DNA of 64,000 bases from Virgisporangium ochraceum (lineage in GTDB: Bacteria > Actinomycetota > Actinomycetes > Mycobacteriales > Micromonosporaceae): assembly GCF_016863655.1 (NCBI RefSeq), contig NZ_BOPH01000072.1:1-64000 (forward strand). The letters are read 5' to 3'. Of the stretch, positions 33,023 to 44,299 are shown in pieces. Each line of letters begins with the position of its first letter. Within the stretch, counting starts at the first letter, position 1. Both the position numbers and the translations under genes were made by a program. Under the pieces are notes generated by a model. That model made no database searches. It saw only the letters and a program-made list of their open reading frames with translations, and was not told where the DNA came from.

Positions 33023-33928
33023 TCACGGCACCATCGATGCTCCCGGTCCGTTTCCAGGCGACAGGAACTCGGTGACCGGGAGGCGGCCGTCCGGTTGGCG
33101 GGGGCCCACCGCCGTCGTGGGGTCGGTGGAACGGAACGTCGACGGCGCCACGCCAGGGGCCGCCGTCAGCGAGCTGTCTTCCGCGGAGGCGTTCGCCTCC
33201 AGGAGGGCCGGGCCCGCCGGAACAGCGAAGCCCGTGCCGCCGTTGCGGAACGACGTGTTGTTGCGGAGCACCAGCGCTCCGCGGTTCGTGCCGTCGGCGG
33301 AGCCGTCGAACGCGTCGAAGCCGTTGCCGGCGTTGTCCCACGCGGCGTTGTTCCGCAGGACGTGCGCGGCCGCCGGAGCCGGATCGCCGCCGCCCAGGAG
33401 GAAGCCGTCGGCGTTGGGGCGCCATTCCCTCGCGTTCCAGCGGTTGGCGCCGTTGCCGTAGGACCAGTTGTGTTCGAGGGTGACCGCGTCGGCGAAGTGG
33501 CCCACATCGAAGCCTGAGTCGGCGTTGTGGAACGCGCGACAGCCTCGGATCACGTTTCCCGTGCCGTCTCCGAACTTGATACCCAGGCCTATGCCGGCCG
33601 TTCCCGGCTCGTCGGGGTCGTAGTTGTCGTAGAAGTCGGAGTCGAGGACCTGGTTGTCGGTCGTGCCGGGGTCGCGCAAAGTCAGGCCGGAGCGGTCGTT
33701 GCCGTGCATGGACAGGCGTTGGAACACGTTGCCGCGGCAGGATATGCACACGTAGGCGTGGCTCTTCGAGTTCATCACCTCCAGGCCCCGCACGGTCCAG
33801 TAGCTGCCCCGATGGGTCACCGCCCACTTGTCGGCCGGGATGCCGGCCGCGTCGATGACCGGGCGTTCGTCGCGGTAATTGGTGAGCGTGATGCGGCTTC
33901 CGGGTTCGCCGCTGACGGTGATGACCAC
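33023..33928 (-). CDS. PL9-like beta-helix domain, in-frame continuation of the sigma-factor gene
   Basis: About 300 residues of right-handed beta-helix that continue the sigma-factor frame after one TGA (33953-33955). Read through, the junction is IAMR-stop-GVYRPTRAVVIT, aligning with IALRGGTYPFTTNVRI of the pectate lyase at 36605, so TGA replaces a conserved Gly codon. The domain parallels that lyase through GLGIKFGDGTGNVIRG, NADSGFD and NADGFLLGGGDPAP. Where the enzyme has NSDDGFD and FKMGGGDP, this copy has DSGFD and FLLGGG, so the catalytic Lys and one acidic Ca ligand are lost. GTG 33928 could start it alone, but it would have no signal peptide. Confidence 0.75.
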   Translation of the reverse strand: MVITVSGEPGSRITLTNYRDERPVIDAAGIPADKWAVTHRGSYWTVRGLEVMNSKSHAYVCISCRGNVFQRLSMHGNDRSGLTLRDPGTTDNQVLDSDFYDNYDPDEPGTAGIGLGIKFGDGTGNVIRGCRAFHNADSGFDVGHFADAVTLEHNWSYGNGANRWNAREWRPNADGFLLGGGDPAPAAAHVLRNNAAWDNAGNGFDAFDGSADGTNRGALVLRNNTSFRNGGTGFAVPAGPALLEANASAEDSSLTAAPGVAPSTFRSTDPTTAVGPRQPDGRLPVTEFLSPGNGPGASMVP

Positions 33929-33945
33929 CGCCCTCGTCGGGCGGT
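33927..33945 (-). other. Hairpin immediately after the in-frame TGA
   Basis: ACCGCCC and GGGCGGT pair as a perfect 7-bp stem with a 5-nt loop, beginning 7 nt after the TGA on the coding strand. The position would suit a readthrough- or pausing-promoting structure; chance in GC-rich DNA is possible. Confidence 0.4.
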
Positions 33946-33952
33946 AGACGCC

Positions 33953-35056
33953 TCAGCGCATCGCGATGGTCTGGCCCGCACGCACCACCGAAGCCGCCTT
34001 CCCCAGTGTCGCGAATGGACGGTCGAGGGTGCCTTCGTTGTCGTCGGAGCCGTCCGGGGCAACGTACAGGTCGGCGGCGGTCGCCCCGCCGGGCACGGGC
34101 GAACCCGGTAGGGGCAGCGCCGCCGAGGACGCCCATGCCCCCGCCGGTGGAGCCGCGTCGGCCGTCCACGGCGTGACGTGGACCGCGTACGTGAACCCGC
34201 CTCCGGCGGCGACGAGAACAGCCGTCGCCAGGACGGCCGCCTTGAAGTTCAGCGCAGAGACCGGCGTCGTGACGACGATGCCCGGGTCGAGGTTGGCCAG
34301 CGAGTCCGGCACCGGCATGGAACCCAGGCCCGGTAGCAGTTTCTCCGGCGACACGAGACCGCGGCCCAACCGCCCACAGTCCGGACAGCTACGCGTGTGG
34401 CGGATGAACCGCTTGCGCCACAACGGGTCCACCGTCCCGGTCCAACCGACGCTCAGCGCGTCACATCGCGGTTGCGCACGGAGCGCGCGCACGACGACGC
34501 GCGCCGCCTCCAGCCGCGTGCGCATCCGCTGGATGCGCACGGCGGCGTGCGGCGCGGTGAGACCGAGGGCGGCGGCGAGTTCGGACCGCGTGAGCTCGCC
34601 GGCCGCCTCCTGCCACCACAGGGCGAGCAGGTGGCGGTCGGCGTCGTCGAGCCAGCGCGCCGCTTCGGCCAGTTCGCGGCGCTGTCCGGTGAGGACGAGC
34701 TCGGTGACGGTGCGTTCGGAGAAGTCGGCGCCGGGGTCGGGGGGATCGACCGGCGTCTGTTGGACGCGCAGCCGCGTCGTCGTGCGATGCCGTGCGTAGC
34801 GCTGGATCTGGCGGTACGCGATCGCGACCGCCCACGAGCGGAACCGGGTCGGGTCGCGGAGGGCGGGCAGGCCGCGCACGATCCGGACCATCGTCTCCTG
34901 CACCAGGTCGTCGACGTCGGCGTGGCCGCCCAACGCGCGGCCGACGACGTCGTAGAGCAGGGGCAGATGGCCGCCGAGGAGATCGTCGAGCGCGCCCCGG
35001 TCGCCGGCCTGGGCGGCCCGCACGAGGGTGGCGGTGTCGGTCTGGCCGCGGGTCAC
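33953..35056 (-). CDS. ECF-like sigma factor with membrane helix and start of extracellular domain
   Basis: 367 aa to the TGA. Sigma-2 region at residues 8-90 (LLGGHLPLLYDVVGRALGGH, VDDLVQETMVRIVRGLPAL, RFRSWAVAIAYRQIQRYARH). Sigma-4 helix-turn-helix at about 130-190 (ELTRSELAAALGLTAPHAAV). Then a short Cys segment (HTRSCPDCGRLG), a single membrane helix (about 268-290, AAVLATAVLVAAGGGFTYAV), a Pro/Ala linker and the first part of a secreted-type lyase domain (DLYVAPDGSDDNEGTLDRPF). GTG 35056 has GGAAAG upstream and puts the sigma domain at the N-terminus; ATG 35176 is less likely. It is divergent from two pectate lyase genes, the likely targets. Confidence 0.82.
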   Translation of the reverse strand: MTRGQTDTATLVRAAQAGDRGALDDLLGGHLPLLYDVVGRALGGHADVDDLVQETMVRIVRGLPALRDPTRFRSWAVAIAYRQIQRYARHRTTTRLRVQQTPVDPPDPGADFSERTVTELVLTGQRRELAEAARWLDDADRHLLALWWQEAAGELTRSELAAALGLTAPHAAVRIQRMRTRLEAARVVVRALRAQPRCDALSVGWTGTVDPLWRKRFIRHTRSCPDCGRLGRGLVSPEKLLPGLGSMPVPDSLANLDPGIVVTTPVSALNFKAAVLATAVLVAAGGGFTYAVHVTPWTADAAPPAGAWASSAALPLPGSPVPGGATAADLYVAPDGSDDNEGTLDRPFATLGKAASVVRAGQTIAMR

Positions 35057-35208
35057 AAAAGATCTTTCCGGGTTTGTGTTATGCGGGGACGGGGTGCGGG
35101 GTCTACCGGGTGCGCGGCGTCGATTCGGGTGGAGCGGAGAATCGGCGGGTTCGTGCTGCTCAAAAGCGGTTTGCAATTCCTGTGAATCGTTTCATGGAAA
35201 CAAATCGA

Positions 35209-35281: not shown

Positions 35282-36541
35282 GTGACCGTCAGCACCATCC
35301 ACCCCGCCGGGCGGGGCGGCCGCCGCCGGAGGGTGACCGCGCTCGCGGGCGCGGCCCTCGTCGCGACGACCGCCCTGGCGGTGGCCGACGCACCCGCCGC
35401 GTCGGCCGCGACCCCCGACACCAACGCCACGTACGTGTTCGTCAACCGCCACAGCGGAAAGGCGATGGACCTGTGGGAGTGGTCGACCGCCGACAACGCA
35501 CCCGTGAACCAGTTCGCCCGTAACGACCTCGCCGTGCAGCAGTGGCGGTTCGTGTCGGTCGGCAGCGGCTACTACCAGGTCCGCTCCGTCCACAGTGGAA
35601 AGGTCCTTCAGGTTCCCGACGCCAACAACGGGAGCTTCCTGGTCCAGGCCACGTCGTCGAGCTCGAACACCCGCCAGCACTTCCGCCTCGCGGACTCCGA
35701 CAGCGGCTACGTCCGCTTCATCAACCGCCACTCCAACAAGGCACTGGACGTGTGGGAGTGGTCGACCGCCGACGGCGGCCGCATCGCCCAGTACGACGAC
35801 CTCGACGGCTGGAACCAGCAGTGGCAGCTCGCCACCGTCGGCGGCACCACGCCGCCGCCCACCGGCGCCTGGCCGACCCCGACCGGACAGACCGCGGTGA
35901 ACGGCACCGTCGCCGTCTCCGGCACCTACGACGGCGGCATGCGCCGCTTCTGCTGCATCGGCGACGGCGGCCAGGAGGAGGACCAGGACCCGATGTTCCG
36001 GCTCGTCAACGGCGCGACGCTGCAGAACGTCATCATCGGCGCCCCCGCCGGCGACGGCGTGCACTGCGAAGGCTCGTGCACGTTGCGGAACGTCTGGTGG
36101 GAGGACGTGGGCGAGGACGCCGCCACCTTCCGCGGCAGCGGCTCGCCGACCTTCCTGGTCGACGGCGGCGGGGCCCGCAGCGCCAGCGACAAGGTGTTCC
36201 AGCACAACGGCGCTGGGACGCTGACCATCCAGAACTTCCAGGCGAGCAACTTCGGCACCTTCTACCGCTCGTGCGGGAACTGCTCCACCCAGTACCGCCG
36301 CAACGTGGTGATCCGCAACGTGACGCTGACCCGACCGGGCAACACCGTCGCCGGCATCAACACCAACTACGGCGACACGGCCCGCTTCACCGGGGTCACG
36401 ATCGTCAACGACTCCAGCCGGGCGATGGTGATCTGCCGCAAGTACACCGGCAACAGCAGCGGCAACGAACCGACCCAGGTCGGCACCGGAGCCGACGGCA
36501 CCAACTGTTTCTACTCCGCGTCCGACCTGACCTACCGCTGA
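35282..36541 (+). CDS. Secreted pectate lyase (PL3) with RICIN lectin domain
   Basis: 419 aa. A long Arg-rich signal peptide with hydrophobic core (LAGAALVATTALAVADAPAA) ends near residue 42. Residues 48-195 are a ricin-type beta-trefoil with its QxW marks (VQQWRF, NQQWQL) and repeated SGKAMDLWEWSTAD / NKALDVWEWSTAD, expected to bind galactan or pectin. After a Pro-Thr linker, residues 200-419 are a PL3 beta-helix (CCIGDGGQEEDQDPMFRLVN, GDGVHCEGSCTLRNVWWEDV, GEDAATFRG). It should cleave polygalacturonate by beta-elimination with calcium. Divergent from the sigma factor; a strong terminator follows. Confidence 0.92.
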   Translation: MTVSTIHPAGRGGRRRRVTALAGAALVATTALAVADAPAASAATPDTNATYVFVNRHSGKAMDLWEWSTADNAPVNQFARNDLAVQQWRFVSVGSGYYQVRSVHSGKVLQVPDANNGSFLVQATSSSSNTRQHFRLADSDSGYVRFINRHSNKALDVWEWSTADGGRIAQYDDLDGWNQQWQLATVGGTTPPPTGAWPTPTGQTAVNGTVAVSGTYDGGMRRFCCIGDGGQEEDQDPMFRLVNGATLQNVIIGAPAGDGVHCEGSCTLRNVWWEDVGEDAATFRGSGSPTFLVDGGGARSASDKVFQHNGAGTLTIQNFQASNFGTFYRSCGNCSTQYRRNVVIRNVTLTRPGNTVAGINTNYGDTARFTGVTIVNDSSRAMVICRKYTGNSSGNEPTQVGTGADGTNCFYSASDLTYR

Positions 36542-36604: not shown

Positions 36605-37783
36605 ATGTACCGAGTACTGCTGGTGGCCGCGCTGGTCGGCGGCTCGCTCGCCGTGGCGTCACCCGCCAGCGCCACGACGACGCTGGTCGTGGCGACCAAC
36701 GGCAACGACGCGAACGCAGGAACCGTCGCCTCGCCGCTGGCCAGCCTGGCCCGCGCCGTCGAGCTGGCCACCCCGGGCACCACGATCGCCCTGCGCGGCG
36801 GCACGTACCCCTTCACCACCAACGTGCGGATCATGAAGGACGGCACGTCGTCGTCGCCGTACACGATCACCAACTACAACGGCGAGAAGGTCGTGCTGGA
36901 CGGGGAGAACCTGCCGCACACCCCGGCCCCGGTCGGCGGCAGCATCCCCAACCTGGAGCGCGGCGTCCTGCACATCGAGGCCGACTACTGGCGGGTGCGC
37001 GACGTCGAGATCGCCAACGGTCCCTACGCGATCTTCTGCCGCGACTGCAACAACAACATCTTCGAACGGCTGATCACCCGCGACAACTACGAGTCCGGCC
37101 CGCAGATCCAGAGCGCCTCGTCGAACAACCAGGTGATCAACCTGGACAGCTACGGCAACCGCGACCCCCGCAAGAACGGCGAGAGCGCCGACGGCCTGGC
37201 CATCAAGGAGGGCTCGGGATCCGGGAACGTGGTACGCGGCGCCCGCCTGTGGAACAACTCCGACGACGGCTTCGACGCGTGGCTGTTCACGTCGCCGATC
37301 CTGATCGAGAACTCCGCGGCCTGGGGCAACGGGGTGAACCGGTGGAACCTGCCGTCCTATGTGGGCGACGGCAACGGGTTCAAGATGGGCGGAGGGGACC
37401 CGGACCCGCCGGCCAACCACACGATCCGGAACAGCTTCTCGTTCCAGAACGCGGTGGGCGGGATCATCGACAACGGCAACCCGGGGACGATCACGGTCGA
37501 CAGGTGCTCGGCCTGGCGCAACGGGGACAGCGGGTACAAGTTCGGGAGCTCGACGTCGCGGCTTACGGGGAACCTTGCCCTGACCAACGGCGCCGGGGTG
37601 TCCCTCGGTAGTGGGGTCTCCGCGAGTGGGAACTCGTGGAACATCAAGTCGTCGTGGACGGCTTCGGATGTGGCGAGTACGGATCCTTCGGCGTTGACGG
37701 GGGCCCGGAACCCGGACGGGAGTATCCGGTCGTCCAGCTTCCTGCGTCCCAACAGCTATCCGAACCTTGGCGCGCGAATCTGA
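36605..37783 (+). CDS. Secreted pectate lyase (PL9-type beta-helix)
   Basis: 392 aa. Signal peptide YRVLLVAALVGGSLAVASPA with cleavage after ASA. The rest is a ten-coil beta-helix beginning TLVVATNGNDANAGTVASPL. The calcium-site cluster is seen as NNSDDGFDAW (about residue 220), and the presumed catalytic Lys as GNGFKMGGGDPDPPANH (about 260), as in family 9 lyases. It should depolymerise pectate outside the cell, together with the PL3 enzyme upstream. The sigma factor at 33953 carries an inactive relative of this same domain. Confidence 0.9.
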   Translation: MYRVLLVAALVGGSLAVASPASATTTLVVATNGNDANAGTVASPLASLARAVELATPGTTIALRGGTYPFTTNVRIMKDGTSSSPYTITNYNGEKVVLDGENLPHTPAPVGGSIPNLERGVLHIEADYWRVRDVEIANGPYAIFCRDCNNNIFERLITRDNYESGPQIQSASSNNQVINLDSYGNRDPRKNGESADGLAIKEGSGSGNVVRGARLWNNSDDGFDAWLFTSPILIENSAAWGNGVNRWNLPSYVGDGNGFKMGGGDPDPPANHTIRNSFSFQNAVGGIIDNGNPGTITVDRCSAWRNGDSGYKFGSSTSRLTGNLALTNGAGVSLGSGVSASGNSWNIKSSWTASDVASTDPSALTGARNPDGSIRSSSFLRPNSYPNLGARI

Positions 37784-38269: not shown

Positions 38270-40069
38270 GTGGATTCTGCCCGCCCAGGGGAACTCACCC
38301 ACCATCAGCTGCCTGTCGCGTTCCTGGAAACGCTCGCGTGCGGGTCGGGTTCGCCGGAGATCACCCGATTTCTCTTCTCTGAGACGGAACGCAGCCGCCG
38401 GCTGCTCCTGATCGTCACTCTGTTCAAACACTGTGAGGCGCCCGGCGCGCTCGGCCCCCTGCCTTCCGCCCGCACCGCCTGGTCGGTCTTCAGCCGAGCC
38501 AGGGAGACCGACCAAGCGGCGGTCGACGATCTCCTGATGCACCCACAGGTCGGCAACGCGGCTGCGTACGCCCTTCGCCGGCAACGCGGCGGCGTCGACA
38601 GTGACTTCCCGATCTGGACCGACCTCGGCCTGATCCATGTCCTCGCCCTGATCGCGGCGGCGCGGGTCGGGCTGAACTGGTCGACCAACCTGCCCACGCG
38701 CTACGGCACCGTCATGCTGCCGACGCTCGGGCTGGCCAAGTTCTCCCCCGCTGTCGCGGCATCCACCGTGAACGCCCGTACCGACGCCGGCTCCATCTAT
38801 TTGTCCGCCGACGACACGCAGGTGGTGGTTGGCCCCGATCCCGACGACGACACCGACCACTGGTGGCATCTGCGGCACATCGTCGCCGGTTCGAAGTTGC
38901 CGTTGACCGTCTGGCTCGACGACCTGGACCCGTTCCGCGACCTGGCCGACCCGGTGCCGCCGTCGCGGCTGGACGACCGCTCCGTCGAGCGTTGGCAGGA
39001 TCTGCTCGACGACGCCTGGACGCTGCTGTGTACGCATCACGCCGAGTCCGCCGCCGCTCTGGCCGAGGGTGTCATCTCTCTGGTGCCCCTGCCCGGCCGG
39101 CCCGGTCAAGAGACTCGTAGCGCGTCCAACGGAGAAGCGTTCGGCAGCGTGATGGTGTCGCAACCGCCGGATGCGGTCACGCTCGCGGTCGCGTTGGTAC
39201 ACGAGTTCCAGCACATCAAGCTGGGCGCGTTGATGCATCTGGTGCCACTGGCGGAGGACGACGGGTGCTACTACTACGCGCCGTGGCGCGACGACCCGCG
39301 TCCCCTGGGCGGTTTCCTCCAGGGCATCTACGCGTTCTTCGGAATCGCGGAGTTCTGGCGCCGGCACCGACTGGTCGTCCACGGCTCCGACGCCGTCCTG
39401 GCGAGCTACGAGTACCTGTACGCGCGAGGTCAGACGATCGAGGCGCTGCGGTCCGTCAGAGACGCACTGGCGCTCACCGACGAGGGCCGCGAGCTCGTGG
39501 TCCGGCTCGCCTCGGTCGTCGAGACTTGGCGGTCGGATCGGGTCGAACCGGAAGTCGAACGGCTGGCCCGGCTGACGGCCGGCTGTCACCGCACGGCCTG
39601 GCGGCTACGGCACCGGCAGGTGCCGGCCGTCGACGCCACCGCGTTGGCGGAGGCCTTTTCCGAACGTCGGTTGCCCGGGTTCCCGCCGCTACCGGCGGTC
39701 GGGCCCCACCCGACGCAGCGGTGGCCACAACGCATACCCGATCTGGCCCGCCGACGCATCCTCGGCGTCGGCACGCCCGCATCCCCGGAACCGCTCGCGA
39801 CCGCCGACCTCGCCCTCGTGCACGGCGATGTCGATACCGCGCTGAGCATCTACCTGAACCGGCTGGCCCGTTCGCAACACGGCTCGGACGAGGAGATCCA
39901 GGCCTGGGTGGGTCTCGCGCTCGCGCTGTCCGAGAGCGGCGGCGGCGAGGCGGCGAAGGCACTGACGTCCCGACCCGATCTCGTCCGCGCCGTCCATGCC
40001 GCGTCGGGGAAGTCGGCCGACCCCGTCGAGGTGGCTGCCTGGCTGGCGCAGGTCATCAAGGACGACTGA
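38270..40069 (+). CDS. HExxH-type peptide-modification protein
   Basis: 599 aa from GTG 38270 (a TACCCT box ends 5 nt upstream, so the message may be leaderless). The family, found beside FxSxx-COOH peptides, is annotated as alpha-ketoglutarate-type HExxH peptide beta-hydroxylases. Marks are the N-terminal GELTHHQLPVAFLETLACGS, central VALVHEFQHIKLGALMHLVP (HEFQH at about residue 310) and the following YYYAPWRDDPRPLGGFLQGI. A helical C-terminus with TPR-like end (GDVDTALSIYLNRLARSQHG) may bind the peptide or the TPR protein. Likely substrate is the 56-aa peptide upstream. The stop is 4 bp from the convergent TPR gene. Confidence 0.85.
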   Translation: MDSARPGELTHHQLPVAFLETLACGSGSPEITRFLFSETERSRRLLLIVTLFKHCEAPGALGPLPSARTAWSVFSRARETDQAAVDDLLMHPQVGNAAAYALRRQRGGVDSDFPIWTDLGLIHVLALIAAARVGLNWSTNLPTRYGTVMLPTLGLAKFSPAVAASTVNARTDAGSIYLSADDTQVVVGPDPDDDTDHWWHLRHIVAGSKLPLTVWLDDLDPFRDLADPVPPSRLDDRSVERWQDLLDDAWTLLCTHHAESAAALAEGVISLVPLPGRPGQETRSASNGEAFGSVMVSQPPDAVTLAVALVHEFQHIKLGALMHLVPLAEDDGCYYYAPWRDDPRPLGGFLQGIYAFFGIAEFWRRHRLVVHGSDAVLASYEYLYARGQTIEALRSVRDALALTDEGRELVVRLASVVETWRSDRVEPEVERLARLTAGCHRTAWRLRHRQVPAVDATALAEAFSERRLPGFPPLPAVGPHPTQRWPQRIPDLARRRILGVGTPASPEPLATADLALVHGDVDTALSIYLNRLARSQHGSDEEIQAWVGLALALSESGGGEAAKALTSRPDLVRAVHAASGKSADPVEVAAWLAQVIKDD

Positions 40070-40072
40070 CGG

Positions 40073-43000
40073 TCAGAAGGGCATCGGGTCGACATCACAG
40101 TTGGCCCGGACCCGAGCGTTGGCGGCAACGATCGCCGGATGGCCAGAACCGAGCACACGGACGTATCCGGCCACCGCCTCGTCGAACAGGCGCTCGCCCT
40201 CCTCGCCCCGGCCGAGAGCCATGAGGTCGAAGGCGACGTTGATCGCGCACGCGAGGGTGGACGGATGGTCGGGACCGGTGACCTGACGCCACCGGCGCAC
40301 CGTGTTCACGTCGAGCTCGTACGCTCGACTGTGTTCACCGAGGGCCGCCAGATCACTGCCGAGGTTGATCTCGCACGTCAACGTCATGACATGGTTCCGG
40401 CCCAGTGTCCGCTCAAGCCCGGTTAGGGCTTCTATGTTGTGCAGATACGCGTCCTCCGGGTTGCCGAGCAGACGGAGAACGATGCTGAGATTGGTTCGCG
40501 CGTACCAGGTGTAGGGGTGGTCGGGCCCGAGGCGCATCCGGTAGCGCTCCGCGGTCTGCATCGCGAGTGTCCGCGCCCTAGGCAGGTCGTCGCTTTCGCG
40601 GACGTCCACCGCGAAGTCGAGTTGTGCGGCGATCGTGTCCGGATGGTCGGCCCCGAACCGGTCCTGAAGCCGGTTCATGGTGTCCTCCGCCAGCTTGTAC
40701 GCGCCTTCATGGTCTCCGGCGCGGCGCCGGGCCACCGCAAGGTTGCGCGCCACCCGCACCGTGTCGGGGTGGGCCACGCCGAACAGGGTCACGTGCTGCG
40801 TGTAGCTCCGCTCCGCCAACCGGTGCGACTTGAGGTACTCGCCGCACTCACGTTCGTCGATCGTCAATCCGTTGAGGGTACGGAGGGTCTCGGGATGGTC
40901 GTCGCCGAGTACCGGAACCCGCCGTCGGTAGGTGTCCCCGTCCAACTGCCGCGCGGTGCGGAACTCACCGGTCAACCGGAGGCTCACCCCCAGGAGGTGA
41001 GCGGCTCTGAGCGTGTCGGGGTCGTCCTGACCGTAGAGCCGACGGGACCGCTCGAAGGTCTCCAGGTCGAGATCGCGAGCGTCGTTGAAACGTCCGGCCA
41101 CCCGCAGCGTCGAGGCGACCATGCCCATGGCGTCGATGGTCTCCCCGTCGTCGGGGCCCACCGCGCGCCGGTAGCGGTCGAGTGTGTCGCGGTGGATCGC
41201 GGACGCGGCATCGTTGTCGCCCTCGAGGAACCAGAAATAGCCCAGCCACTTCGCCGCCCGGAGCGTCTGCGGATGGTCGGCGGTGAGCCGTTCCCGCCAG
41301 TCGTCGACCACCAGTTGCGCGAGGTCGCGGCCGCTGGCGTAGTCGCCCCAGGAGAAGTAGAACGCGACGAGGTTGAGTACGAGCTCCCGGGCCCAGTCGT
41401 CCTCGCACGTGTAAGCATTCGACGCCGTCAGGTGGGACGCCAACGCCTGGTAACGCAGCCAGTGCGTCGGATCGCTGGGTTCGCCGGGCTTTCCACCGCT
41501 CGCGAGCAACACATGCGCGCCATGCTCCATCCCGGTGCGTTGGCTCTCCGGCATCCGGGCCTTGAGCTCCGCCTGCACCAACCGGTGCAGTTGCAGGGAG
41601 TTGGTCCGGTGGTCGATCCGGGCAAGCACGTACTTCTGGATGTCGCGGATCGCCTGCGCGAGCTGGCTCGAGCTCTGCAGCGCCCGGTCGAGTTCCGGTG
41701 CGATGGGGGTGGACCGCGGCCCGGCGAAGAGCTCCCGGCTGATCGGTTCCGGTGCGAAGAACGAGCAGACCTGCAGCAACTGCAACGCGGCGGGATTCTC
41801 GACCGCCAGCCGATCCAGCGCCACGTGTGCCGCCGCCGCTACCGGCATTTCGTACCGTGGAGCCGGGTGCATGTGGGCGAGTTCAACCTGCTTCTGTTCG
41901 AGGAGCGCGAGATACTCCCGGGCCGACATGCCCGTCGTCGCCAGCCATGCCGAGGCGTGCTCGATGGCCAGCGGAAGGTCCTCCAGCTCGGACGCGAGCT
42001 GATCGGCGTCCTCGTCGTCCAACCCTGGGTTACGACGCTGGAGAAGCCGGACGCTCTCGGGCCGGCTGAACACGTCGACCTCCAGCGTCTCCGCGATCCG
42101 GCTCCACTCCTGATTCCGTGAGGTCACCAACACCCGACCGGTGCCCGCCTCCGGAAGGTACTCCCGCACGGTGTCAAGGGTCTCCGCGTTGTCGAACACC
42201 AGCAGCCAGTTCGAGTAGGGTGTGCCGGCCCGCAGTGCCGCCCGCACCCGGGGAACCGCGGTGATCACCTCGTTTCCGACGTCCAGCCCGAGTCGGTTGC
42301 CCAGTTCGATGATCGACGCGAGGATCTGCGCCGGGCGTTCGGACGGGATCCACCAGATCACCTCGTAGTCGGCACGATGCCGGTAGGCGTACTCGATGGC
42401 GATCTGCGACTTCCCCACCCCGCCCTCGCCGTGGAGCGCCTGTGGCAGAACCGCGGCCACACTCTCGGTCTGCAGCCGGCGCTCCAGCTGTTCGAGCAGT
42501 TCCCGTCGACCCGTGAACACCGGGTTGCGGGTCGGAATGCTGCCCCATACGGCCGGACCGGTCTCGTCGCTCTGACCGTCGAGGAGAGCCTGGACGGACA
42601 GGATCGGGTCGTCTCCCCCCAACAGCGGCTCGGTCGGACCGCCGGCGCCGACCGGGAACAACGGTTCGCCAACGGCATAGGCATCGTCATTCGGTCGGTC
42701 GGGCATGACCTCACCACTCTCGGTCGCGTCGGCGGGGGGTACGCCGGATTCAGGTTCGTCGGTCGGCCCGCTTGTGGCGGTGCCGACGGGTCGGGAAGGG
42801 GCGCCTGGCTCGTCGCGTTCGAGGGCGGCTATCGCTTCGCCCAGGCGGTGGGCGCGGCGGGCGTACGGCCCGCTCAAGGCGTTCAGGACCGCCAGTTCGA
42901 TGCGGGCCAGCGGTAAGGTCTCGCGGGTCACCAGCGGGTCGCTGTCTGGTACCTCGACCGCTGTGGTCAGTGCCAGCGTCGCGGGGCGGCGGAGGTTATG

Positions 43001-44299
43001 GTGGGCGGCGACGGCCCGCAGCACGCGTGCAGAGTCGTGGCGGGTGCTCCCGGCGAGGAGGGCCTCGCGCACGCCGGCGGCGAAGTCGAGGGCGCCGTCG
43101 ACCCGTACCACCAGGTCGCTGGTGACCACCTCGGCCAGGTGCAGCGGCGCCGACTCGGGCAGCAGCGACCGCTGGATCCGGCGCAGCAACGGCAGGTCCA
43201 GCGGCGCCGCGGCCAGGTAGGTGGCCAGCCGGAACGCCGTCGACGAGGCGCTGGAACGGAAGCGCAGCACCAGCTCGGTCGCGTCGGTGGGTGGGTCGTC
43301 GGGCGTCGCGGCGCCGGAGCCGACCACGTGGACCAGCCCGTCGACCCATCCGGTCGGCTCGGTCACCAGGCGGGCCCACCACGAGATCCAACGCGGGTTC
43401 AGTTCGAGCACCGGCACCGCCAGGCCGTCGGACCGCAGCGGCTCGTCGAGGGTCGAGCTCGCCAACTGGACCTCGAGAGCGCTGGTCGGCGCGACCGCGC
43501 GCGGCGGGCGCAGCCTGGCCCGCCGCGGCGCCAGGGCCGTGCGGTGCCAGTGCTTCTGCGGGAACGGGTTGACGAACGCGAGCGGACCGCTGCGACCCCA
43601 CAGCCGCAGCATCGCCTGCGTCCGCTCATCCCTCCACAGTGGATTGAGACCGTCGGTCAGCACGAGGAACACCTGCCGGCCCGTGGAGTCCAGGGGTTCG
43701 GCCGGGCTGCGCGCGGACGAGCCGCCGGGTCCGTGCGGCCGGAGGCCGGGCGTCAGGACGAACGTGCGCACGCCGCGGAACGAGCCGTGCCGTTCCAGCT
43801 GTGACCGCAGCGCGGCGACCGTCGGCCGCCAGACGGCCATCGACGGGCTGCCGTCGACCACGAGCACGAGTGAGAGCCAGCGCGCCTCCACGAACCGGTA
43901 CTGCGGCAACCATCGACCCGTGTCGGCGGCGTACTCGGCGGTGCGTTCCTCGTCGGGCTCGGTCTCGGTGACCGAGACGACCCGGCGCTTGAACGGGCGC
44001 AGCGCCTGGCCCAGCCGGTACGTTCCGGGCAGGGCGGCGACCGGACCCGACACCGGGTCGAGGTCGACCAGCGCCTCGATGCGCTCGGCGGTCTCCCGCC
44101 ACTCCACCGGTGGAGGGGGCCGGGCCGCGCCTGCGGCCGACGAGGGGGTGGCGGCCGGAGGGCGGGCGTCGACCGCCGGCGCCGGGTCCGCCGCAACGTC
44201 CACAGTGGATGGATCGTCCACCGGAGACCGCGTAACCGCGGCCAGCCACAGCGCGTCGGCCACCTCCCGCCAGTGCGGCATCCCGGGACCCGACGCCAC
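40073..44299 (-). CDS. vWA - NB-ARC - TPR STAND protein (FxSxx-associated, vWA/MoxR/VMAP type)
   Basis: 1408 aa. Residues 1-135 are a Pro/Ala-rich SAV_2336-like N-terminus. Residues 140-300 form a von Willebrand A domain with LSLVLVVDGSPSMAVWRPTV (MIDAS D-G-S-P-S). At about 590-900 is an NB-ARC ATPase: FTGRRELLEQLERRLQ, P-loop LHGEGGVGKSQIAIEYAYRH, WWIPSERPAQI and LPLAIEHASAWL. From about 990 there are roughly eight TPR repeats of the DHPETLR type. The NB-ARC/TPR part matches the STAND protein of FxSxx-COOH peptide systems; the vWA part is the usual partner of MoxR and VMAP. It starts GTG 44299, 3 nt after the MoxR stop. Confidence 0.87.
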   Translation of the reverse strand: MASGPGMPHWREVADALWLAAVTRSPVDDPSTVDVAADPAPAVDARPPAATPSSAAGAARPPPPVEWRETAERIEALVDLDPVSGPVAALPGTYRLGQALRPFKRRVVSVTETEPDEERTAEYAADTGRWLPQYRFVEARWLSLVLVVDGSPSMAVWRPTVAALRSQLERHGSFRGVRTFVLTPGLRPHGPGGSSARSPAEPLDSTGRQVFLVLTDGLNPLWRDERTQAMLRLWGRSGPLAFVNPFPQKHWHRTALAPRRARLRPPRAVAPTSALEVQLASSTLDEPLRSDGLAVPVLELNPRWISWWARLVTEPTGWVDGLVHVVGSGAATPDDPPTDATELVLRFRSSASSTAFRLATYLAAAPLDLPLLRRIQRSLLPESAPLHLAEVVTSDLVVRVDGALDFAAGVREALLAGSTRHDSARVLRAVAAHHNLRRPATLALTTAVEVPDSDPLVTRETLPLARIELAVLNALSGPYARRAHRLGEAIAALERDEPGAPSRPVGTATSGPTDEPESGVPPADATESGEVMPDRPNDDAYAVGEPLFPVGAGGPTEPLLGGDDPILSVQALLDGQSDETGPAVWGSIPTRNPVFTGRRELLEQLERRLQTESVAAVLPQALHGEGGVGKSQIAIEYAYRHRADYEVIWWIPSERPAQILASIIELGNRLGLDVGNEVITAVPRVRAALRAGTPYSNWLLVFDNAETLDTVREYLPEAGTGRVLVTSRNQEWSRIAETLEVDVFSRPESVRLLQRRNPGLDDEDADQLASELEDLPLAIEHASAWLATTGMSAREYLALLEQKQVELAHMHPAPRYEMPVAAAAHVALDRLAVENPAALQLLQVCSFFAPEPISRELFAGPRSTPIAPELDRALQSSSQLAQAIRDIQKYVLARIDHRTNSLQLHRLVQAELKARMPESQRTGMEHGAHVLLASGGKPGEPSDPTHWLRYQALASHLTASNAYTCEDDWARELVLNLVAFYFSWGDYASGRDLAQLVVDDWRERLTADHPQTLRAAKWLGYFWFLEGDNDAASAIHRDTLDRYRRAVGPDDGETIDAMGMVASTLRVAGRFNDARDLDLETFERSRRLYGQDDPDTLRAAHLLGVSLRLTGEFRTARQLDGDTYRRRVPVLGDDHPETLRTLNGLTIDERECGEYLKSHRLAERSYTQHVTLFGVAHPDTVRVARNLAVARRRAGDHEGAYKLAEDTMNRLQDRFGADHPDTIAAQLDFAVDVRESDDLPRARTLAMQTAERYRMRLGPDHPYTWYARTNLSIVLRLLGNPEDAYLHNIEALTGLERTLGRNHVMTLTCEINLGSDLAALGEHSRAYELDVNTVRRWRQVTGPDHPSTLACAINVAFDLMALGRGEEGERLFDEAVAGYVRVLGSGHPAIVAANARVRANCDVDPMPF

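Follow-up and report, generated by a model that had tools for sequence, protein, structure and literature searches.

In the stretch of DNA analysed here (64,000 nucleotides of Virgisporangium ochraceum, hereafter the window), a gene on the reverse strand at positions 33023–35056 joins a sigma factor, a zinc-binding motif, a membrane helix and a PL9-like right-handed beta-helix, and this fusion quite probably acts as a membrane-tethered, one-protein pectin-response switch. In such a switch, the zinc-finger and membrane segment fused to the ECF sigma factor would keep it inactive at the membrane, in the manner of an attached anti-sigma factor, and the PL9-derived domain, predicted to lie outside the cell, would bind pectin or its fragments. 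Binding would then set the sigma part free, regulated proteolysis being the most likely route, and the freed sigma factor would transcribe pectinase genes from promoters of the form TGTTRTC-N17/18-TCTAC, which it is presumed to recognise. The predicted targets are the divergent PL3–PL9 operon in the window and, in other species, distant pectinesterase, PL1 and PL11 genes too. This reading draws on observed features, namely the layout of the protein, its conservation, the loss of catalytic residues, the pectin neighbourhood and the promoter-like element with its genomic targets.

Organisation of the fusion protein

The fusion gene comprises 678 codons, interrupted at codon 368; it starts with a GTG at 35056, with GGAAAGA upstream, and its stop codon lies at 33023–33025. 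The sequence-only reading of this DNA had described one frame, broken by a TGA, that encodes a sigma factor, a membrane helix and a PL9-type beta-helix, and coordinates, Pfam matches and hydropathy agree with that description. All the parts lie on the reverse strand. Sigma-70 region 2 (34781–34969) is matched by Pfam PF04542 (1.8e-13) and by fold to sigma-E, SigW and AlgU. The region at the sigma-4 position (34520–34651) was recognised only through a weak helix-turn-helix match just under the cut-off (PF13404, 1.3e-5) and through fold matches to ECF sigma factors. According to these Pfam and fold matches, regions 2 and 4 stand alone, as in ECF sigma factors. Next comes, unnoticed in the sequence-only reading, the zinc-binding motif C-x21-H-x3-C-x2-C (34376–34465, amino acids 198–227), which is ZAS-like, as in anti-sigma factors, an assignment made at the level of the motif, with no Pfam zinc-finger match in the window protein. 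The H-x3-C-x2-C signature with its upstream Cys is nevertheless shared by 68 of 69 fused proteins and by all 37 of the sibling proteins tested, which share the sigma, zinc and membrane parts. A single membrane helix is predicted at 34205–34261 (amino acids 266–284, VSALNFKAAVLATAVLVAA), where 19-residue hydropathy reaches its maximum of 1.83; in the fusion layout it is followed by a linker rich in Pro, Ser and Thr and then by the carbohydrate-related domain. In the window this domain is the beta-helix (33026–34069), supported by a Beta_helix Pfam match (1.5e-14) and by Pel9A-like matches on both sides of the TGA, at 4.9e-5 before it (below the cut-off) and 4e-10 after it (PF22842). The window protein has no Pfam match to RsgI_N, and its sigma and restraint parts belong to one polypeptide. 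A full-length model was too uncertain around the zinc motif, the membrane helix and the linker to give the arrangement of the parts.

PL9 fold and degenerate active site

Modelling of the beta-helix and comparison of its active site had been proposed from the sequence. Predicted alone with AlphaFold2 (pLDDT 89), the domain matches the PL9 rhamnogalacturonan lyase 5olr with Z 42.6 and the pectate lyase Pel9A (1ru4) with Z 41.9 (2.5 Å over 343 residues), and other beta-helices reach Z 31 and below. The window domain thus shares its fold with the PL9 lyases (Z about 42 over some 340 residues) but differs from them in its active site and in being fused to a sigma factor. The functional residues of Pel9A are taken here to be the calcium ligands Asp209, 233, 234 and 237 and the base Lys273. 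On alignment to Pel9A, the free PL9 enzymes from the fusion loci keep this DDDDK set in eight of eight cases, whereas the window domain reads I-D-S-D-L. The loss of the catalytic Lys, replaced by Leu (33398–33400), and the change of DDGFD to DSGFD had both been noticed from the sequence and are borne out by the alignment; the Ile at the equivalent of Asp209 is a third loss, so that the catalytic Lys and two of the four calcium-ligand Asp are missing.

Across the family, the Lys is lost in 71 of 83 fused domains and kept in 12, and all five residues remain in four. The earlier description of the domain as dead is thereby qualified. In the maximum-likelihood tree, one apparent loss of the Lys precedes a group of 59 and another falls in a group of three. 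Because four fused domains keep all five residues, the domain appears to have begun as a complete lyase; the active site of the fused ancestor was probably complete, the pseudo-enzyme state being derived from it, and the distribution of residues indicates that the domain has persisted long after that site was lost. The same intact members would also fit a working, cell-tethered lyase whose signal is its own cleavage product. This alternative is very unlikely, as the Lys, and often the calcium ligands too, have gone from most members, including the one in the window, yet the domain and its pectin neighbourhood persist. The origin of the sensor as a recent duplicate of the neighbouring PL9 gene was also considered and rejected. 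The fused domains form one old clade apart from the PL9 enzymes (SH-aLRT 97), and their identity to the neighbouring enzyme is about 36–38%. For the same reasons, the earlier proposal that the sensor is an inactive copy of the very enzyme that it controls is not supported.

Distribution and age of the fusion

A search for further fusions of this kind beside pectate lyase genes, as had been suggested, was productive. About 70 single-frame, full-length fusions were found in about 64 of 355 Micromonosporaceae genomes, spread over many genera. Homologues throughout the family are 44–77% identical across the sigma factor and the beta-helix in one frame, and because they recur in this way the fusion is not a product of chance; it is real and old. 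The closest case is another genome of the same genus (G002), where an orthologue without interruption (77% identity) likewise adjoins the PL3 and PL9 genes; the genome also holds an uninterrupted paralogue that is 56% identical. Named records with the fusion belong to Actinoplanes/Paractinoplanes, Rugosimonospora, Symbioplanes, Micromonospora sp. and Kineosporia. Outside Micromonosporaceae the fusion is rare: protein searches found it in one non-family genome among 299 sampled in the order and in one among 395 sampled at class level, the latter matched as two pieces that meet at the linker. A pattern-based, non-exhaustive scan of all prokaryotes returned actinomycetes only.

The in-frame stop codon

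The TGA that interrupts the window gene (33953–33955, reverse strand, codon 368) lies inside the beta-helix, at a position where relatives have no stop. Among the fusions seen, an internal stop is confined to the window copy: the roughly 70 single-frame homologues are uninterrupted inside, and the stops flagged in other matches precede the start codon where checked. Downstream of the TGA, dN/dS between the window gene and its G002 orthologue is 0.196, amino-acid changes specific to the window number five against 17 specific to the orthologue, and no frameshift or second stop occurs across 930 bp. Because the sequence past the stop is still constrained and free of frameshifts, the TGA is best read as a recent mutation or a draft-assembly error. 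Selenocysteine or programmed read-through was rejected, as the position holds no stop in the relatives examined and aligns with a residue other than Cys.

If the stop is real, the product has 367 residues and keeps the sigma factor, the zinc motif and the membrane helix but loses nearly all of the sensor. The switch may therefore be recently broken in this strain, unless the TGA is a sequence error; since the stop precedes most of the sensor, this strain may not use the fusion. Another possibility, given somewhat less than an even chance, is that the window gene is a pseudogene on its way out and that other factors run the lyase operon. Besides the TGA itself, the state of a second fusion in the same genome points in this direction, as that copy is wrecked. 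On the other hand, the lack of further lesions, the constraint after the stop with fewer changes than in the intact orthologue, and a promoter-like element that is itself intact speak against this, and the TGA may be an error of the draft assembly. The pseudogene reading concerns the window allele only and is compatible with a pectin switch at the level of the family. The damaged second copy (G000:C90:45174-45989, seen in loci L016 and L165) lies near a short PL1 match.

Pectin genes in the neighbourhood

Divergent from the fusion gene, the forward strand of the window carries a secreted protein with a ricin lectin and a PL3 pectate lyase (35282–36541; PF03211, 1.6e-76, and PF14200), the presumed target, and 63 nt after it a PL9 pectate lyase that keeps all catalytic residues (36605–37783, Pfam PL9), presumably the second gene of the operon. 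This pair had been recognised from the sequence, and the Pfam matches to the PL3 and ricin domains, with PL9 next, confirm it. Next to the operon lie a protein with an HExxH-like motif (VHEFQHIK; 38270–40069, forward strand) and a large ATPase/TPR-like protein (40073–44299, reverse strand), and similar genes also follow the lyase operon at the orthologous G002 locus (L091).

Association with pectin genes is general in the family. In 67 fused loci, the immediate 5' gene is a pectinesterase in 23, a PL3 gene in five and a PL1 gene in four, and the second gene is PL1 in 15 of 52 loci. A PME, PL1, PL3 or PL9 gene lies within 6.5 kb of 50 of 70 fusions but of only one of 48 control loci, which have the same sigma chassis with other sensors or none (Fisher p 1e-15, indicative only because the loci are related and their counts are not independent). 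Fusion genomes hold roughly 2–15 pectinesterase matches each in about 9–12 Mb, and chance adjacency is negligible for that reason. The central proposal of the sequence-only reading, a membrane-tethered sigma factor with a degenerate extracytoplasmic PL9 domain linked to pectin genes, is upheld by this contrast and by the shared element described below.

About 20 of the 70 fusions have no pectin gene nearby, and many of these adjoin dinB. A subclade of the Actinoplanes type without pectin neighbours (L128, L131, L134, L135, L137, L139, L144, L145 and L276) is linked to dinB, the gene for DNA polymerase IV; in several of its members the element reads into dinB, 64 nt upstream of it in L276. Such loci, together with a fold equally close to rhamnogalacturonan lyase (5olr) and to Pel9A, leave room for another function of the PL9-like domain, as a wall anchor or positioner or as a sensor of another polymer (rhamnogalacturonan or a self-made exopolysaccharide), with the pectin neighbourhood as inherited synteny. 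This is unlikely. The pectin genes vary in position (divergent from the fusion, following it on its own strand, or preceding it in line), and the enzyme families differ from locus to locus, yet pectin stays the common theme; moreover, distant unlinked pectin genes carry the same element, in fusion genomes only. Varied gene order and unlinked element-bearing genes likewise weaken synteny alone as the origin of the association. The rhamnogalacturonan variant is rather a refinement of the pectin switch, because rhamnogalacturonan is itself a pectin component.

A promoter-like element shared with distant pectin genes

The element TGTTRTC-N17/18-TCTAC was found by an unsupervised paired-word search near the fusion, which recovered it in up to 15–16 loci against at most 7–8 in shuffles. 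In the window, the ECF-like promoter element TGTTATG-N18-TCTAC (35077–35106, forward strand) is directed into the lyase operon and lies 175 nt upstream of the PL3 start; the sequence-only reading had not noted it. Scored with a weight matrix from which the window and its orthologue were left out, this site reaches 24.1 bits, against 10.6 for the next best in the 64 kb and 13.7 for the best in 400 kb of random sequence. In 34 of 71 loci the strict element lies immediately 5' of the fusion, and its direction is always away from the fusion gene. Where the pectin genes follow the fusion on its own strand (L126, L136 and L159), the best element is found in the intervening gap and on the pectin-gene strand, although in L126 it reaches 16.7 bits only.

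Genome-wide scans gave 35 sites in 14 fusion genomes against six for a reversed control pattern, and four against four in 10 genomes that lack it. Sixteen fusion genomes have 29 sites away from the fusion; by hand count, 14 of these lie before genes for pectinesterase, PL1, PL11 or pectate lyase, and 19 before plant-cell-wall-type genes; none of the four sites in genomes without the fusion precedes either kind. The distant pectin genes are pectinesterases (L242, L257, L259, L261 and L264), PL11 lyases (L229, L245, L270 and L272), PL1 enzymes (L223 and L246) and pectate lyases (L230, L234, matched to 9buj, and L271), with the element 14–121 nt before them in the same sense. The element also precedes a GH54 arabinofuranosidase (L274), GDSL-CBM2 esterases (L224 and L275), a beta-helix protein (L273) and a GH43 gene (L237), the last being the weakest of the plant-cell-wall-type cases because its site directly adjoins the called frame. 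In the window genome, the other PL1 and pectate lyase genes examined have no strong element, and the predicted regulon there is therefore the PL3–PL9 operon only.

The element 5' of the fusion might instead belong to the opposite strand and be the promoter of the sigma gene itself, not that of the pectinases. Its occurrence near the fusion gene in loci without pectin neighbours is in keeping with this, which is nonetheless highly improbable: the element moves to the pectin-gene strand when those genes lie downstream, it precedes distant pectin genes in their own sense at short range, and it faces the sigma gene in the PL3/PL9 subclade and in the siblings read.

Relation to known sigma systems

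The closest relatives in design are the sigma factors of the ECF52/ECF53 type, such as SCO4117 of Streptomyces coelicolor, in which a single protein likewise combines an ECF sigma factor, a zinc finger, a membrane helix and an extracytoplasmic carbohydrate-related domain (PMC5826349, PMC8999054, PMC10766802); the window fusion is likened to them by domain layout and not by group sequence profiles. For these groups, proteolytic release has been proposed and some members have predicted glycosyl hydrolase domains (PMC5826349, PMC8999054, PMC10766802), and a review notes that their predicted glycosyl hydrolase and carbohydrate-binding domains lack experimental validation (PMC10766802). SCO4117, the studied member (PMC5826349), has a proline-rich region and a carbohydrate-binding module and controls development, whereas the window fusion has a degenerate PL9 sensor, a pectin neighbourhood and a predicted pectin promoter. 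Neither a PL9 sensor nor a pectin regulon nor a lyase-to-sensor series was found in the literature on ECF52/53 covered here, which excludes the defining surveys (Huang 2015, Casas-Pastor 2021). The fusion is best read as a variant of the known actinobacterial sensors that join sigma factor, zinc finger, membrane helix and carbohydrate-related domain, and its apparently new part is the PL9 sensor with the predicted pectin regulon.

Another example is the SigI/RsgI system of Clostridium thermocellum, which resembles the fusion in having an extracellular polysaccharide sensor and a membrane helix and in placing the matching enzyme genes under a sigma factor (PMC4711584, PMC12203970). In this bacterium, RsgI3 senses pectin through PA14 and RsgI6 carries a GH10 sensor (PMC4711584, PMC12203970), and SigI3 drives PL11 and a pectin esterase (PMC4711584, PMC12203970). 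The GH10 module of RsgI6 has very low activity and serves as a binding sensor, a precedent for an enzyme turned sensor (PMC4711584). The sequence-only reading knew of no lyase pseudo-enzyme used as a sensor; for the PL9 sensor no parallel was found in the literature covered here, but at the level of principle RsgI6 offers one, with a low-activity hydrolase. The two systems differ in that SigI/RsgI consists of two proteins, SigI belongs to another sigma group, and RsgI has its own cytoplasmic and autocleaving domains and no PL9 sensor; the resemblance is one of function, not of descent. IutY of Pseudomonas putida (ECF243) also combines a sigma factor and a membrane anti-sigma factor in one protein, as in the fusion layout, and in that case proteolytic release, by Prc and RseP, has been demonstrated (PMC8999054). 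Unlike the fusion, IutY senses a siderophore in a cell-surface signalling system and has no polysaccharide domain.

The present case offers a named substrate (pectin), a predicted promoter, predicted targets in many species and a sequence series from lyase to sensor, and for these reasons its mechanism is directly testable. If the mechanism holds, a single gene would explain in a simple way how such soil bacteria detect plant cell walls without import.

Sibling sigma factors with other sensors

The same sigma–zinc–membrane chassis also carries Glyco_hydro_cc (GH128-like), CAP, Lcl_C and AbfB domains and one unnamed domain. The element is present in 21 of 48 sibling loci and, in the cases read, lies on the strand of the sigma gene, at its 5' end. 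ECF factors are expected to autoregulate, which fits this position. Because siblings carry the element at their own 5' ends, it is tied independently to this sigma subfamily, and because their elements are very similar cross-talk is possible. The chances are evenly balanced that the subfamily represents one chassis with one promoter code, its sensor swapped among retired and living carbohydrate-active domains (PL9, GH128-like Glyco_hydro_cc, AbfB and the unnamed one), with the PL9 branch preserving the transition from enzyme to sensor, from a complete active site to none, all members still wired to pectin genes.

The commonest sibling (most of the loci L177–L214) has the GH128-like Glyco_hydro_cc domain, whose NEPD and TE motifs look intact, and many of its loci adjoin luciferase-like monooxygenase genes. 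Chassis fused to CAP or Lcl_C occur in Streptomyces and Kitasatospora (L063, L067, L070–L072, L086 and L088) and in Actinoplanes (L069, L075, L079 and L083). At L164 (6762–8957 and 8776–10578), a chassis with an AbfB arabinose-binding domain adjoins a GH62 arabinofuranosidase, a match of sensor and enzyme, and one sensorless sibling sigma adjoins a GH10 xylanase. Finally, some siblings have an extracytoplasmic domain with no Pfam match (L175:6046-7770, L176:5891-7840, L180, L194, L068 and L170); that of L175 adjoins an alginate-lyase-like gene and that of L176 a pectinesterase.
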